The notes under the pieces were generated by a model. That model did not search any database and had not been told where the DNA came from. It worked only from the letters and a program-made list of their open reading frames with translations. A DNA stretch of 6,230 bases, taken from assembly GCA_030610915.1 (NCBI GenBank), contig JAUWQS010000105.1, positions 1-6,230 on the forward strand, given 5' to 3'. The DNA is from Pseudomonadota bacterium. GTDB lineage: Bacteria; Desulfobacterota; Syntrophia; Syntrophales; JADFWA01. Of this stretch, positions 1,568 through 6,219 are shown in pieces (within the stretch, counting starts at the first letter, position 1; each line of letters opens with the position of its first letter). The position numbers were made by a program, and so were the translations under genes.

Positions 1568-3613
1568 ATGAAGATCGTTTTAGTCTTTCCGCCTTTTTAT
1601 CTCGAGTCTATGTATAACCTTCCGCCACTGGGTTTGATCAACCTGGCTACAGCGCTCAAAGATACGCCGCACGAAGTGGTCATTATGGATTTTGTCCTGT
1701 ATCTTCGCAAGGGAAAGCTGGGATTTGGAAAAGACATATATGACGATTGCGCCGATATGATATTGGAGCATGAGCCGGATCTGGTCGGCTTTTCCGCTCA
1801 GTGCGCCACCTATCCTCCGGTGATACAAATTGCCGGGAGGATCAAGGCGAGAAGACCGCAAGTCTTAACAGTCATCGGAGGACATAATGCCTCCTTCGTG
1901 GACCGGTTTACCCTTGAAAGATACCACTGGATTGATGCCATCATTCGCGGGGAAGGTGAAATTACCTTCCGGGAACTGATCAATGCTTATGACGGTGGTT
2001 GTAATGAGAAAGGGATAGAAGGAATAACCTGTCGAAGAGGAAACGAGATAATCAGAAATAAAGATCGGGCGCTTATTCAGGACCTTGATATGTTGCCCTT
2101 GCCTGATTACACCTTTACACCCTCTTTTTCAGAATATCGCGATGCCTGTGACCTGCCGAGGAGTATCGCCATCTTAGAGGTTGGGAGAGGATGCCCCCAC
2201 CGCTGCATCTATTGCTCGGAATCAATATTCTGGAGACGCAGACCAAGAAATTTTTCAGTAGACCGTCTAACGAAGGAGATGCAATATCTCCACGGAAACT
2301 CAGGCGCCGAATGTTTTCTCCTGGCATACGATCAGTTCACCGCCAAAAAGGAGTTTGTAGAAGCATTCTGCCGAAAAGTGATAGAAAAAAGATTAAACCA
2401 CATCCCGTGGTACTGTATATCCAGGCTCGACACTGTGGATGAGCCCCTCCTTCGGCTGATGAGGGACGCAGGATGCGAATCGATGTGTTATGGCATCGAT
2501 TCCGGGTCAAAAAGGACACTGACATTTATTCGTAAAGACATTAATAGAGAACTCCTGTACCAGCGCGTCAGGGAAACAACGGAGCAGGAGATCATCCCCA
2601 CATTAAGCTTTGTTGTTGGATTCCCGGAGGAAGAGGAGGAGGATATCGATGCCACCTTGACTCTTGCTCTCAAGACCGGGGCGCTGGGCAATATAAACCC
2701 CTTAATCCAGATGCCGACTGTGCTGCCGGGAACAGACCTGTGTAAAGAATATAGCGGCCGCCTGTCGCGAGAGGTTGACACCTACTTTTCCCTGGGAATA
2801 GATTTTGACAATGGGAAACGACTTCATGGCGACGAAGAATTGATCAACAAAGACCCTCTGATCTACAGCAGTTTTTACAACCTTCCCTGTAAGGGACTTT
2901 CATCGGTAGAGTTAACCCTCATCGCCTCCTATTTTCCGTTAATGGTAAATTTCTATGCAAAGACCTTCTTACTGTTGACCACCCCGCGCCGGAAATCAAC
3001 CTCGGCCCTTTTCTTTGAGTGGCTCTACTGGCTTACTGCACGATTAAAGAGGGATCGACCCACACTTTGTCCGCAGGATTGTTACCGTCACTTCACGACC
3101 TTTGTCCATGAACTCTTACAAAATAAAAAAAAAGGGTATCTAAAGCATCTCCCCGACATCCTGAAATACGAGACCCTCGGCCTCGAGGCAGGAAAAAGCA
3201 GCGTGCCGGCAACCGGTTTCCATATCGATCTCAACAAGATTCAAGGGTTCACGCCCCGGAAGAGCGAGGGGCTAATCATCGGGGAATTCGATTTTGAGAT
3301 CCCCCTGATCATAAGAGATTTTAAGGCAGGCATCTTCATGAAGGACTACCCGCCGAGGGAGACCATCCTCGTATTCAGGCATGAAGGAGAACAGTTGGAA
3401 GTTACCGAGATCAATGACTTCGGCAGCGATTTTTTAAACCTCTGCGATGGGAGGAGGACATTGCCCGCCATTTCCGATGCGCTCTATCCATGCTGCGAAT
3501 CCGGTATGAGTCCCGGCAGTTTCTTTGAATCGTGTCTAAAGGCGGCCCAGGTATTGGGCCGGATGGGACTTCTTGAACCTGGTGACATAACTGTTCGCCG
3601 CAGAGAACGCTGA
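1568..3613 (+). CDS. Cobalamin-binding-type radical SAM peptide maturase with C-terminal PqqD-like domain
   Basis: This 681-aa protein has three parts. Residues 1-150 form a B12-binding-like Rossmann domain (MKIVLVFPPF, PPLGLINLATAL, IGGHNASF, IIRGEGE); the DxHxxG lower-ligand His motif is not evident, as in many class B radical SAM proteins. Residues about 195-400 are the radical SAM barrel with the [4Fe-4S] motif C209-PHR-C213-IY-C216; GIDSG (309-313) and VVGFPEE (349-355) are typical of B12-radical SAM proteins. Residues about 600-670 (EINDFGSDFLNLCDGRRTL...GRMGLLEP) look like a PqqD/RRE-type winged helix for binding a precursor peptide. The ATG gives the canonical N-terminus, but no Shine-Dalgarno is seen. 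The 36-aa Cys-His repeat peptide gene lies 144 nt downstream, so the likely role is modifying that peptide (C-methylation, epimerisation, or a bond to sulfur). The exact reaction is unknown. Confidence 0.85.
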   Translation: MKIVLVFPPFYLESMYNLPPLGLINLATALKDTPHEVVIMDFVLYLRKGKLGFGKDIYDDCADMILEHEPDLVGFSAQCATYPPVIQIAGRIKARRPQVLTVIGGHNASFVDRFTLERYHWIDAIIRGEGEITFRELINAYDGGCNEKGIEGITCRRGNEIIRNKDRALIQDLDMLPLPDYTFTPSFSEYRDACDLPRSIAILEVGRGCPHRCIYCSESIFWRRRPRNFSVDRLTKEMQYLHGNSGAECFLLAYDQFTAKKEFVEAFCRKVIEKRLNHIPWYCISRLDTVDEPLLRLMRDAGCESMCYGIDSGSKRTLTFIRKDINRELLYQRVRETTEQEIIPTLSFVVGFPEEEEEDIDATLTLALKTGALGNINPLIQMPTVLPGTDLCKEYSGRLSREVDTYFSLGIDFDNGKRLHGDEELINKDPLIYSSFYNLPCKGLSSVELTLIASYFPLMVNFYAKTFLLLTTPRRKSTSALFFEWLYWLTARLKRDRPTLCPQDCYRHFTTFVHELLQNKKKGYLKHLPDILKYETLGLEAGKSSVPATGFHIDLNKIQGFTPRKSEGLIIGEFDFEIPLIIRDFKAGIFMKDYPPRETILVFRHEGEQLEVTEINDFGSDFLNLCDGRRTLPAISDALYPCCESGMSPGSFFESCLKAAQVLGRMGLLEPGDITVRRRER

Positions 3614-3645: not shown

Positions 3646-3742
3646 AGTGGTCATCTATAGGTTCCAGGTTCACGGTTAATCTGCTGATGAAAGAGAGATC
3701 GGGTTCCAATATCTTTGAAAAGGTCTTGGAAATTTTAGATGA

Positions 3743-3750
3743 AAGGAGGT
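3743..3750 (+). promoter_or_regulatory. Strong ribosome binding site of the peptide gene
   Basis: AAGGAGGT is a full anti-16S match, placed 7 nt before the ATG at 3758. It is the strongest Shine-Dalgarno in the window. It decides the start of the short ORF and argues that this ORF is really translated, and at a high rate. Confidence 0.88.
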
Positions 3751-3757
3751 GAAAAAT

Positions 3758-3868
3758 ATGTTGAAAGTGAAGAAGGTAGAGAGAAAGGTTTCCTATGCAT
3801 CCAGTTGCCACGCACCGTCATGCCACGCACCGGCTTGTCATGCGCCGTCATGTCACGCACCTTCATAG
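3758..3868 (+). CDS. 36-aa Cys-His repeat peptide, candidate RiPP precursor ((S/A)CHAP x4)
   Basis: Translation gives a basic leader MLKVKKVERKVSYAS (1-15), then four 5-residue units S/A-C-H-A-P with a final Ser. Cys17-His18, Cys22-His23, Cys27-His28 and Cys32-His33 form four Cys-His pairs spaced exactly five residues apart. The repeats differ at silent positions (TGC/TGT, CAC/CAT, GCA/GCG, CCG/CCT) while the protein repeat is kept. The sole amino-acid change is Ser to Ala before the third Cys. A perfect ribosome binding site lies upstream. The gene sits between a radical SAM maturase with a PqqD-like domain and a methyltransferase plus dipeptidase, so it is best read as their substrate. There is no signal peptide. 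The likely core is residues 16-36. An unmodified metal-binding peptide is the alternative. I do not recognise a named family. Confidence 0.85.
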   Translation: MLKVKKVERKVSYASSCHAPSCHAPACHAPSCHAPS

Positions 3869-3898
3869 ACATAGGAAAGAAATTTCAGTAACCTGAAG

Positions 3899-3922
3899 TG
3901 GGGGGTGGCAAGCCCCCCATTT
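3899..3922 (+). terminator. GC-rich hairpin after the peptide gene (terminator or attenuator)
   Basis: TGGGGGG (3899-3905) pairs perfectly with CCCCCCA (3913-3919) around a 7-nt loop, 30 nt after the peptide stop. Only three to four T residues follow, so termination is probably partial. Removing the later insertion of element D would place this hairpin only about 40 nt before the methyltransferase start. That fits a leaky hairpin that makes more peptide message than enzyme message. Confidence 0.6.
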
Positions 3923-4050
3923 CCAGATTGTAAATACTCAGCCACAGATTCACACAGATGAACGCAGATATGTTTAAATACAAAGAAATCGCGTGACTAT
4001 ACAGGTGGGTAGGCTGAAGGCTGTTAGTCTATTAATTGTAAAGTTCTTGC

Positions 4051-4106: not shown

Positions 4107-4170
4107 GCCCTTCGACAAGCTCAGGGTGCGTCCTAAAGCTCACGGCGTGCCCTGAGCCTGTCGAAGGGGC
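4107..4170. repeat. REP-like inverted repeat (CCCTTCGACAAGCTCAGGG type)
   Basis: CCCTTCGACAAGCTCAGGG at 4108-4126 is mirrored by CCCTGAGCCTGTCGAAGGG at 4150-4168, with one mismatch over 19 bp around a 23-nt spacer. This palindrome type is a familiar dispersed repeat in many bacterial genomes. Here it lies inside element D and would form a strong transcript hairpin between the peptide gene and the methyltransferase gene. Confidence 0.75.
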
Positions 4171-4321: not shown

Positions 4322-5263
4322 ATGAAAGAAAGACTGATCGATCTGCTTATCTGTCCCGCGTGCCTCCCTGAAGAGAAGAGATTGGCCTTAAGTATCTTTG
4401 AAAGGGATGGAGCGGATATCGTGAGCGGGGCGCTGAAATGTGTCAGATGTGGATATCATTATCCCATCAGAGACGGGATCGCATTTTTGCTGCCGCCCTC
4501 TTACAGACCCCAGTCCCAAAACTCCCCATATGAAAGCTCGCCTTTAATCTCATCTTATCTCTGGAGTCATTACGGCGACATATTCAATGATCAGGATGCA
4601 AGCCTGGCCTATGGGGAGTGGGCCGGCCGGATCACGAAAGGTCATGGCATTTCTCTCGATACAGGATGTGCCGTGGGCAGAATGACCTTCGAAATGGGCC
4701 GCAAAAGCGATTTTGCCATCGGACTCGACAATTCAGAAGGTTTCATCCGGGCAGCCAGGTCTCTCATGACCGAAGGACATCTGGATTTTCCCATCCCTGT
4801 GGAAGGCCATATTATGGAGAATCGCTCCATTTTCCTTCCGGAGGAGAGCGCGCGCGAAAAGGTGGAGTTTATCGTCGGCGATGCCCTTGCCGTTCCCTTT
4901 GCGTCGAACAGCTTTTCCTGCCTTGCCTCACTTAACATTGTAGATAAGATACCCCTGCCTGTATTTCATTTGAAAGAGATAGACAGGCTTGCGAAAAGAT
5001 CCCGGGCGCAATTTCTCTTTTCAGATCCCTTCTCATGGTCTGCGGATGTCACACAAGAGAAAAACTGGCTCGGAGGAAAGGAGAGTGGCTCCTGTGCCGG
5101 TGAGGGTATTGAAAACATGCTGGCCATACTGAAGGGAGAAAAATATGACCTCTTCAACCCCCCGTGGAAGATTGAGGAGAAAGGATATATCTGGTGGAAG
5201 ATTCGCAAGCACCGGAACCTTTTTGAACTGATACGAAGTTGTTTTATCAAGGCAAGGAGATAA
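4322..5263 (+). CDS. SAM-dependent methyltransferase, zinc ribbon plus OvoA C-terminal-like domain
   Basis: The 313-aa protein starts with a Trm112-like zinc ribbon: C11-PA-C14 and C40-VR-C43, followed by YPIRDGIAFLLP. A class I methyltransferase fold follows: motif I LDTGCAVGR (112-120), acidic IGLDNSEGF (133-141), GDAL (186-189). Residues 235-252 (DPFSW...KNWLGG) and the ending 'WKIRKHRNLFEL' closely recall the C-terminal domain of OvoA and stand-alone 4-mercaptohistidine N1-methyltransferases ('SPYTWLEEFTP.ENWLGG', 'PF.IRET.RKFQ'). The OvoA sulfoxide-synthase part is absent. In this context the likely substrate is a modified His (or Cys) of the CHAP peptide; that is inference. No Shine-Dalgarno precedes the ATG, and element D ends 19 nt upstream. 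The methyltransferase call is firm; the OvoA link is from recalled motifs. Confidence 0.82.
   Translation: MKERLIDLLICPACLPEEKRLALSIFERDGADIVSGALKCVRCGYHYPIRDGIAFLLPPSYRPQSQNSPYESSPLISSYLWSHYGDIFNDQDASLAYGEWAGRITKGHGISLDTGCAVGRMTFEMGRKSDFAIGLDNSEGFIRAARSLMTEGHLDFPIPVEGHIMENRSIFLPEESAREKVEFIVGDALAVPFASNSFSCLASLNIVDKIPLPVFHLKEIDRLAKRSRAQFLFSDPFSWSADVTQEKNWLGGKESGSCAGEGIENMLAILKGEKYDLFNPPWKIEEKGYIWWKIRKHRNLFELIRSCFIKARR
5254..5260 (+). promoter_or_regulatory. Ribosome binding site deciding the dipeptidase start
   Basis: AAGGAGA lies inside the last codons of the methyltransferase gene, 5 nt before the ATG at 5266. It supports that start over the in-frame ATG at 5239, which lies within the methyltransferase gene and has no such site. 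Confidence 0.75.
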
Positions 5264-5265
5264 TA

Positions 5266-6219
5266 ATGAACGACAGGCCTTCGGAACTTCCAATCGTGGA
5301 TGGTCATGTTGACATCCTCTATGAAATGATACGTCACCACCCTGATACACCTTTTCACGAGATATCAACCGGCCCGGTAACTCTAAAAAAACTGGAAAAG
5401 GGAGGCATCCGCATCATAGTGACGGCCCTCTACTGCCCCGATGAGTACAACGGCCCCGGCTCAGCTACAGAATACCTTGAAGGCCTCTTTGATATGGCAG
5501 ACAAATACCTCACTCGCCTCGATCACATCCGGACAGCAAAGGGGCTTGATTCATGTTTTAAGGGGGAGACAGGGATCGGAAAGATACTTCTACTTGAAAA
5601 TTCCGACGCTCTTTTAGAGATGGGAACAGATAAACTTGAAGAGAATGGCCTCAAGGTTGTCGGGCTAACACATGCGGGAAGAAATCGGATAGGGGATGGC
5701 AACGGAATAAGGTATCCGGAAAAACTTACCACGGAAGGAAAGAACCTTATCAAAATCTTAGACAATAACGGGTTTGCCATAGACCTGGCCCATCTCTCAC
5801 AGCCATGTTTTTGGGAGGTTATCGATACCTTCAAGGGGCCTGTCATCTCATCCCATACGGGTATCCGCCCTCTTTGTGACATACCGAGAAATCTTTCACC
5901 GGAACAGGTTGACATCATACTGCAGAGAGACGGAATGATAGGGATAACCATAAACCCGGAGATGCTTTCAGAAGATCAGATTGCCGATGCTGAAGATGTC
6001 TTTGAACATATTGACTTTATAGCCCAGAAATATGGGGTGGACGGCATCGCGCTGGGCTCTGACCTTTGCGGCTTTGATATGGTCACAAGTGGGGTGGAAG
6101 ATATATCAAAACTCAGTAACCTGGTGGAAATCCTTGAGAGACACGGATACCCCCGGGAAGCTGTTCAAAAAATCATGGGGGAGAATTGGCGCATTTTTTA
6201 TTCTTCTCTCCTTTCATAG
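5266..6219 (+). CDS. M19 family (membrane/renal-type) dipeptidase
   Basis: This 317-aa zinc peptidase of the amidohydrolase fold hydrolyses dipeptides; the family includes renal dipeptidase, which acts on Cys-Gly and accepts D-residues at the C-terminal position. All expected binuclear metal ligands are visible: H14 and D16 in DGHVD, bridging E111 in LLENSD, H176 in DLAHLS, H197 in SSHTG and D266 in GSDLCG. LTHAGRNRIGDG (134-145), the RNL loop (208-210) and GENW (305-308) near the end are also typical, and length is normal. No signal peptide or membrane segment is seen, so it should be cytoplasmic, unlike the animal enzymes. It begins 2 nt after the methyltransferase stop and is surely co-translated. 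The probable job is trimming the modified peptide or recycling Cys-His-type dipeptides. The start at 5239 would add nine residues but is not favoured. Confidence 0.9.
   Translation: MNDRPSELPIVDGHVDILYEMIRHHPDTPFHEISTGPVTLKKLEKGGIRIIVTALYCPDEYNGPGSATEYLEGLFDMADKYLTRLDHIRTAKGLDSCFKGETGIGKILLLENSDALLEMGTDKLEENGLKVVGLTHAGRNRIGDGNGIRYPEKLTTEGKNLIKILDNNGFAIDLAHLSQPCFWEVIDTFKGPVISSHTGIRPLCDIPRNLSPEQVDIILQRDGMIGITINPEMLSEDQIADAEDVFEHIDFIAQKYGVDGIALGSDLCGFDMVTSGVEDISKLSNLVEILERHGYPREAVQKIMGENWRIFYSSLLS

Follow-up and report, generated by a model that had tools for sequence, protein, structure and literature searches.

The window, a stretch of DNA of 6,230 nucleotides analyzed here over its whole length, encodes a short peptide in which a Cys-His-Ala-Pro unit is repeated four times behind a leader. 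This peptide belongs to a family of precursors encoded next to a B12-binding radical SAM enzyme, and we regard the CHAP family as a new class of RiPP. The precursor pointed out in an initial annotation of the window is confirmed as real, and its reading as a RiPP precursor is supported, with the modification itself being predicted from the sequences. A predicted selenocysteine branch, the kinship of the neighboring methyltransferase to OvoM and OvsM, and likely release enzymes are added to that annotation in this study. No description of the CHAP family was found in our searches of the literature on ovothiol and thiohistidine, B12-radical SAM enzymes, CefA and selenocysteine RiPPs.

The precursor gene and its neighbors in the window

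The precursor gene occupies positions 3758..3868 of the forward strand, on which all features described below are located. It runs from ATG to TAG and encodes a product of 36 aa, MLKVKKVERKVSYASSCHAPSCHAPACHAPSCHAPS, composed of the leader MLKVKKVERKVSYASS (3758-3805) and four CHAP(S/A) units. A perfect ribosome binding site, AAAGGAGGTG (3742..3751), lies 6 nt ahead of the ATG, and the proposal of a tiny gene driven by such a site is thus borne out. The tandem core CHAPS-CHAPA-CHAPS-CHAPS (3806..3865) is made of 15-nt repeats; a repeat search returned four copies with exact 15-nt spacing and 80-100% identity to the first copy. The exact fourfold period given in the initial annotation stands, and its register of (S/A)CHAP is better written as CHAP(S/A), judging from the C-terminus of the peptide. 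No Pfam or NCBIfam family matched the window peptide, and no NCBIfam model scored above its cut-off among the precursor peptides scanned (for 13 peptides, from the table of the first member and the family tally). Downstream of the stop codon, a G+C-rich hairpin (3893..3926) resembles an attenuator or terminator and may act as one. The 70 nt 3' of the stop fold with -24.7 kcal/mol and a z score of -2.65, and z scores below -2 were found after the precursor in 19 of the 32 loci folded, a set that leaves out L148, L174, L175 and L186.

The gene upstream of the precursor (1568..3613) encodes a B12-binding radical SAM enzyme of 681 aa with a CxxxCxxC motif at residues 209-216. The B12-binding and Radical_SAM families of Pfam were both matched by all 42 homologues, in which C209, C213 and C216 are invariant. 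The AlphaFold model of the enzyme has a pLDDT of 90.9, and its nearest structures are TsrM, TokK, CysS, MgmA, AprD4 and OxsB. SPASM is not among the six Pfam families matched by the 42 homologues at E<=0.01, with coverage mainly of enzyme residues 1-615. Fold kinship assigns the C-terminal residues 445-673 (2900..3586) to an RRE/TglI-like domain of the leader-binding type, and this domain is predicted to bind the leader. The closest curated model is ApyD (NF050148), but membership in that family was rejected, with a score of 238.9 bits against a cut-off of 750.

Two further genes follow the precursor. The first (4322..5263) encodes a protein of 313 aa which combines a Trm112-type zinc ribbon with an OvoM/OvsM-like SAM methyltransferase, as identified by sequence and fold matches. 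The second (5266..6219), whose ATG lies 2 nt past the methyltransferase stop, encodes a peptidase of 317 aa in the M19 membrane dipeptidase family (Pfam, 203.5 bits), and GliJ is among its solved relatives. The placement of the peptide between a radical SAM maturase and a methyltransferase/dipeptidase pair is therefore upheld by the Pfam and NCBIfam annotation. The radical SAM assignment holds as well, and the identities of the neighbors are refined to B12-binding and leader-binding-type domains for the maturase, a Trm112/OvoM-like methyltransferase and an M19 dipeptidase.

Several minor features were seen elsewhere in the window. A 19-nt inverted repeat, CCCTTCGACAAGCTCAGGG / CCCTGAGCCTGTCGAAGGG, at 4108-4168 lies within the 450-nt gap between the precursor and the methyltransferase, and it resembles a REP element. 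A degenerate element, ttcaacagttgaag...gacgcacaggcaggctttagtcg, was recognized by eye in two copies (520-670 and 1080-1260), which flank a tRNA-Arg(CCT) gene at 734-810. At the edge, positions 3-185 encode a partial RelE/ParE-like C-terminus, with scores below the curated cut-offs.

Spread, conservation and two core types of the precursor family

A genome scan was performed with an alignment of 22 methyltransferases as the query, and the best 80 of 132 loci were taken. Close relatives of the radical SAM enzyme (54-61%) were present in eight of these best 80 loci, and a CHAP array follows the enzyme in all eight; a ninth candidate, L032, has only 25% identity. In 33 whole genomes, drawn from 34 of the 80 loci, the DNA pattern for CHAPxCHAP occurred in 8/8 enzyme-bearing and 0/25 other genomes, and the pattern read backwards occurred in none. 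A sample of 395 genomes from one phylum gave the pattern in ten, all of them among the 12 enzyme-bearing genomes (E<=1e-80), and the repeat was absent from the 383 sampled enzyme-negative genomes; both counts come from the same draw, as judged by the genome labels. Class-wide enzyme searches in two classes were positive for 16/55 and 14/85 genomes. Pooled with the phylum search, they provided 35 different enzyme-bearing genomes.

The precursor gene directly follows the enzyme gene in 33 of the 35 enzyme-bearing genomes, starting 9-148 nt past the end of the enzyme match, with a second precursor at 506 nt in L178. A leader consensus of M(L/V/I/M)x(V/I/L)(K/R/S/T)x(V/I)E is common to the precursors listed, and ribosome binding sites of the AGGAGG type, such as AAAGGGGGTG in L174, are found ahead of those examined. 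The family precursors are 26-61 residues long. This recurrent leader, together with a number of units that varies from three to nine, agrees with the expectation in the initial annotation of a RiPP precursor family beside homologues of the 681-aa enzyme. The two genomes without a precursor are G446 (L175) and G506 (L186). At L175 the enzyme frame continues into a PESPVRR tail and a hairpin, as would be expected after a deletion of the precursor. L178 (genome G450) carries two precursors at one locus, a peptide with five spaced CHAP units and a UHAP peptide.

Two types of core were distinguished, namely tandem arrays of four to nine CH(A/S/G)P units ending in TAA or TAG, and a single unit with an in-frame TGA as the Cys codon. 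The 20 array loci hold 128 units, with the repeat number at L003 being uncertain because of a run of N within the array. The database protein P0248 has three repeat units, and another database protein, P0251, contains one CNAP unit. In the 19 loci with a complete array, which do not include L003, no full slot of five residues departs from CH(A/S/G)P. At positions 1-4 of adjacent units in the 20 loci, 233 codon changes are synonymous and 30 are non-synonymous, against an expectation of 22% synonymous. All 30 non-synonymous changes fall at residue 3, since the units were selected by the pattern CHxP. The codon comparison indicates that selection acts on the array units at the protein level.

A peptide-profile search of 5.8 billion predicted proteins gave only 12 matches at E<=1, one of them from a contig labelled Spirochaetota, and a search with the enzyme gave 515 matches at E<=1e-60, not necessarily all of this family. 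This difference fits the under-annotation foreseen for a peptide that gene callers easily miss, and the RiPP family is hardly present in predicted-protein databases.

The single-unit type was found at 14 loci (L147, L148, L173, L174 and L176-L185). In every one of them a TGA stands exactly at the Cys position and is followed by codons for HAP(T/S)(E/Q)SPVRR and a stop, and all 21 array-type genes, the L178 array peptide included, end in TAA or TAG. When the HAP codons after the TGA were compared pairwise across 12 distinct sequences, all 127 differences were synonymous. SelB scored above the cut-off in 13/14 single-unit genomes, which makes it very likely that selenocysteine replaces cysteine at the in-frame TGA, a prediction based on the sequences; the 14th genome, G453, has SelB fragments below the cut-off. 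SelB is not specific to this branch, because it is above the cut-off in 32/35 enzyme-bearing genomes overall, compared with 2/14 controls (SelB alone was searched). Homologous clusters consistently without a Cys-His reading frame had been named as evidence against a precursor. The seeming cases dissolve when the TGA is read as selenocysteine, all 14 carrying UHAP, and a precursor is truly absent in only the two genomes mentioned. With the TGA taken as a stop, the single-unit precursors seem to end in ...YVVPT or ...CHVPT and to have no terminal CHAP unit. Cores free of Cys and His had been considered for these loci and were rejected, given the in-frame TGA followed by HAP.

An element of the form ATCTCCG-GTN-CGGAGAT overlaps the gene end in the single-unit loci, with one mismatch in L182. 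Its sequence is conserved; relative to shuffled sequences, the hairpin energy gave z scores of -0.4 to -1.5 in five of six cases and -2.05 in one, and the hairpin is not the lowest-energy fold in two of the six. Rfam searches of eight sources at gathering thresholds matched only tRNA and gave no SECIS match. At L186 the enzyme gene itself contains one match to TGA plus HAP near a half-hairpin, a hit that we take as chance. In a midpoint-rooted tree of 34 enzymes, from which L003 and L011 (partial enzyme) were excluded, enzymes of the array type are placed around the base. The 14 selenocysteine-type rows form one supported group (99/93) with L175 and L186.

The methyltransferase, peptidases and PLP enzyme

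The window methyltransferase is, by sequence and fold, a relative of OvoM and OvsM and not an equivalog. In structural comparison, OvoA, OvoM and OvsM account for the 11 best matches (E 2e-22 to 2e-19, the next at 1e-11), its best sequence match is OvsM, a 5-selenohistidine N-methyltransferase, and its nearest solved relatives are N-methyltransferases of 5-thio- and 5-selenohistidine. Against the ovoA_Cterm model (TIGR04345) it scored 90.4 bits, below the cut-off of 170. NmbA, a bacillithiol methyltransferase, was dropped as a candidate relative, being a different enzyme by the description available in the source (PMC12719100).

The methyltransferase gene adjoins the array in 19/20 array loci and in 0/14 selenocysteine-type loci. 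The array genome G423 (L172) yielded no methyltransferase, and the selenocysteine-type genomes carry a single methyltransferase gene elsewhere in the genome. This unlinked gene (L191-L204, from the selenocysteine-type genomes and G446) is located beside a CysQ-type phosphatase gene in 12 of 14 loci, where L204 and others end at contig ends and the G441 locus is outside the set; the phosphatase was identified from one representative (291 bits, cut-off 229). In two classes, with 140 genomes in all, the methyltransferase occurs in 28/30 enzyme-positive versus 24/110 enzyme-negative genomes, without correction for kinship, and this co-occurrence may partly reflect lineage.

The methyltransferase family has another frequent partner. 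A molybdopterin oxidoreductase of about 687 aa, similar to the formate dehydrogenase alpha subunit (e.g. L001:2362-4428), accompanies it in 51 of the best 80 of 132 loci and lies directly downstream in 43 of the 49 loci with both genes called. The best NCBIfam match of the oxidoreductase is formate dehydrogenase alpha, with 313 bits, below the cut-off of 666. At E<=1e-150 it was found in none of the 30 enzyme-positive genomes and in 14 of the 24 enzyme-negative genomes with a methyltransferase (kinship uncorrected). Because the methyltransferase is paired with this oxidoreductase where the radical SAM enzyme is missing, its substrate need not be the CHAP peptide. At L208-L210 the methyltransferase is followed by a protein of 735-779 aa. 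L044 has a methyltransferase and M19 tandem, and the 595 nt between the contig end and this tandem contain neither a CHAP nor a leader motif. Viral carriage was considered and dropped, as no methyltransferase relative was confirmed in viral contigs.

The sulfoxide synthase domain of OvoA (ovoA_Nterm, TIGR04344) exceeded its cut-off of 400 in 0/59 genomes and in 1/14 controls, with weak matches in 50 of the 59 genomes. Since no genome of the 59 has this domain above the cut-off, another source of the methyltransferase substrate is needed. Open frames of 433-545 aa for OvoA/EgtB-like proteins, at 126-137 bits with the same cut-off, were observed in the selenocysteine-type genomes G447, G448, G451, G454 and G456.

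Peptidase and PLP enzyme genes recur near the precursors. In a set of 36 loci that includes the window, and in which short contigs (e.g. L177 and L172) hide genes beyond their ends, an M19 gene is present beside 21 loci: 7/20 of the array type, 13/14 of the selenocysteine type (the contig of the 14th being too short) and L175. Beside 8/36 loci there is a gene for a class-V PLP enzyme in the cysteine desulfurase family, with the active-site Lys aligned, and beside 4/36 a gene similar to M3 oligoendopeptidase (PepF), both counts resting on queries from L011 and L018, themselves within the set. No other cluster of neighbors was found in more than two of 15 loci, where most neighbors are unannotated, and thus no exporter or immunity gene recurs.

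Proposed pathway, alternatives and related systems

We consider it very likely that the 36-aa peptide is a ribosomal precursor in a pathway of the RiPP type. The sequences themselves establish the peptide family with its leader and unit, the synteny, the TGA at the Cys position and the relatives of each enzyme; the reading of TGA as selenocysteine, each chemical step and the release of a small molecule are inferred from them. We propose that the conserved leader would be bound by the B12-domain radical SAM enzyme, which would then couple the S or Se of each Cys-His-x-Pro or predicted Sec-His-x-Pro unit to the imidazole of the neighboring His. The imidazole would be N-methylated by the OvoM/OvsM-like methyltransferase. 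The M19 dipeptidase, in some loci together with the M3 oligopeptidase, would cut the units down, and the PLP enzyme of the cysteine desulfurase family could act in some loci as a C-S/C-Se lyase. The end product would be a small thio- or selenohistidine similar to ovothiol or ovoselenol; a peptide with tandem Cys copies would yield several product units, and the selenium version would keep one. To our knowledge, such Cys/Sec-His coupling chemistry would be unprecedented if confirmed. We favor this course from a RiPP-type precursor through coupling and N-methylation to a released thio- or selenohistidine-like product, at slightly less than an even chance. The narrower version, an O2-independent and ribosomally templated route to ovothiol- or ovoselenol-like products, with Cys/Sec sulfur or selenium placed onto the His of every CHxP unit, OvoM/OvsM-type methylation, and harvest by peptidase and C-S/C-Se lyase, is tentative and more doubtful.

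The cysteine arrays and the predicted selenocysteine core represent a natural S/Se swap beside a conserved His, and this interchange hints at which atom reacts. The reactions reported for B12-radical SAM enzymes include the formation of C-S bonds, according to PMC10635010. Counterpoints to the coupling are that most of the solved structures closest to the enzyme are methylases, and that M19 and PLP genes are present at some loci only. If the coupling is true, it would explain how an anaerobe lacking OvoA could supply an OvoM-like methyltransferase with its substrate, and it would provide a new way from a ribosomal template to a small redox molecule. The templated route, if true, would mean that a genome encodes a small redox metabolite in several copies per peptide.

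Since most of the nearest structures, TsrM, TokK, CysS and MgmA, are methylases, the radical SAM enzyme may instead C-methylate the units, for example at a beta-carbon or an imidazole carbon of His, with the second methyltransferase acting on the His N or Cys S, and the result would be a peptide, cleaved or intact, that carries several methyl groups. The TglI-like domain conforms to this, as does the nearest curated family, ApyD, which methylates the C-beta of Tyr according to the text available (PMC10635010). However, C-methylation gives no reason for a chalcogen residue, Cys or predicted Sec, being retained beside His. It also leaves the OvoM/OvsM kinship and the dipeptidase and desulfurase-family PLP neighbors unexplained, and we consider it rather unlikely. 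The (C/U)-H-(A/G/S)-P unit of all loci also resembles the active site of formate dehydrogenase, as PMC13188914 lists UHxP as the motif around Sec in formate dehydrogenase alpha and in formylmethanofuran dehydrogenase B, though the motif there belongs to a molybdoenzyme and here to a short peptide, where it is often repeated. The unit might therefore copy that site, such that the methyltransferase recognizes Cys/Sec-His in an FDH-like Mo/W enzyme or in the peptide, and the modified peptide serves as a metal ligand, carrier or mimic. The FDH-alpha-like second partner of the methyltransferase, its mutual exclusion with the radical SAM enzyme, an SVCHV stretch in three sequences (unaligned to the Sec site of FDH) and arrays of up to nine units would suit such mimicry. 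The single unit of the selenocysteine relatives would make a poor chelator, and the dipeptidase and PLP neighbors suggest breakdown, which leaves mimicry improbable; a metallothionein-like chelator as the main reading was dropped in view of the single UHAP units.

The pentapeptide units might also be cleaved off to act as signals or antimicrobials, in the manner of multi-core RiPPs, which would account for three to nine near-identical units in a multi-copy peptide. The single unit of the selenocysteine type and the absence of a recurrent exporter or immunity gene in the 15 loci with mostly unannotated neighbors make this very improbable. A chance repeat without a gene, compatible with the shortness of the reading frame and the missing Pfam and NCBIfam matches, is refuted by the ribosome binding sites, leaders and mostly synonymous variation across 33 of 35 genomes, and its probability is negligible.

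Among known systems, the ovothiol/ovoselenol pathway (OvoA, OvoB, OvoM; OvsM) shares with the favored route the Cys-His chemistry, here proposed, methyltransferases related by sequence and fold, and both sulfur and selenium versions. It differs in that the putative substrates here are residues of a ribosomal peptide, and a B12-radical SAM enzyme would stand in for the sulfoxide synthase. In the ovothiol pathway, as PMC12631010 describes it, 5-thiohistidine is first released by a PLP lyase and is then N-methylated.

The thio(seleno)oxazole RiPPs resemble the CHAP family in their description (PMC11002830, in part), which gives a predicted precursor interchangeable between Sec and Cys, a TGA with an element just downstream, and SbtM, a radical SAM maturase of the SPASM type. 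The CHAP enzyme is B12-binding, and membership with SbtM was rejected because no SPASM family was matched in the 42 homologues; the same partial description names no His-x-Pro unit or OvoM-like methyltransferase. Predicted Sec-containing RiPPs have been described before, in an account whose available text mentions no CHAP unit, B12-radical SAM enzyme or OvoM-like partner (PMC4979651). For aminopyruvatides (ApyD, ApyI), the RiPP cluster encodes both a B12-radical SAM enzyme containing an RRE and a methyltransferase, according to PMC10635010. This likeness in enzymes is set against a different precursor, and no MNIO or P450 is among the annotated genes of the window.

CefA (NF038108) is similar to the array peptides in having Cys at each fifth residue. 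Weak matches to it were found in 11/13 peptides (best E 0.00028) and none for the window peptide; membership was rejected, with 16.3 and 17 bits in the matches listed against a cut-off of 30. The partner enzyme of CefA is of the SPASM type, and the catalyst of the 3-thiaglutamate system, TglH, is an MNIO. The latter system (TglA, TglHI) likewise builds on a peptide scaffold, and proteolysis then frees a small sulfur-containing amino acid (PMC9016710); the CHAP enzyme carries a TglI-like domain. There, Cys is appended to the C-terminus of the peptide, whereas the CHAP repeats are encoded. Gliotoxin is fungal, glutathione-derived and non-ribosomal. In its pathway the M19 dipeptidase GliJ and then the PLP C-S lyase GliI free a thiol from a cysteine conjugate, and the M19 and PLP genes found beside the CHAP loci are reminiscent of this pair of enzymes.
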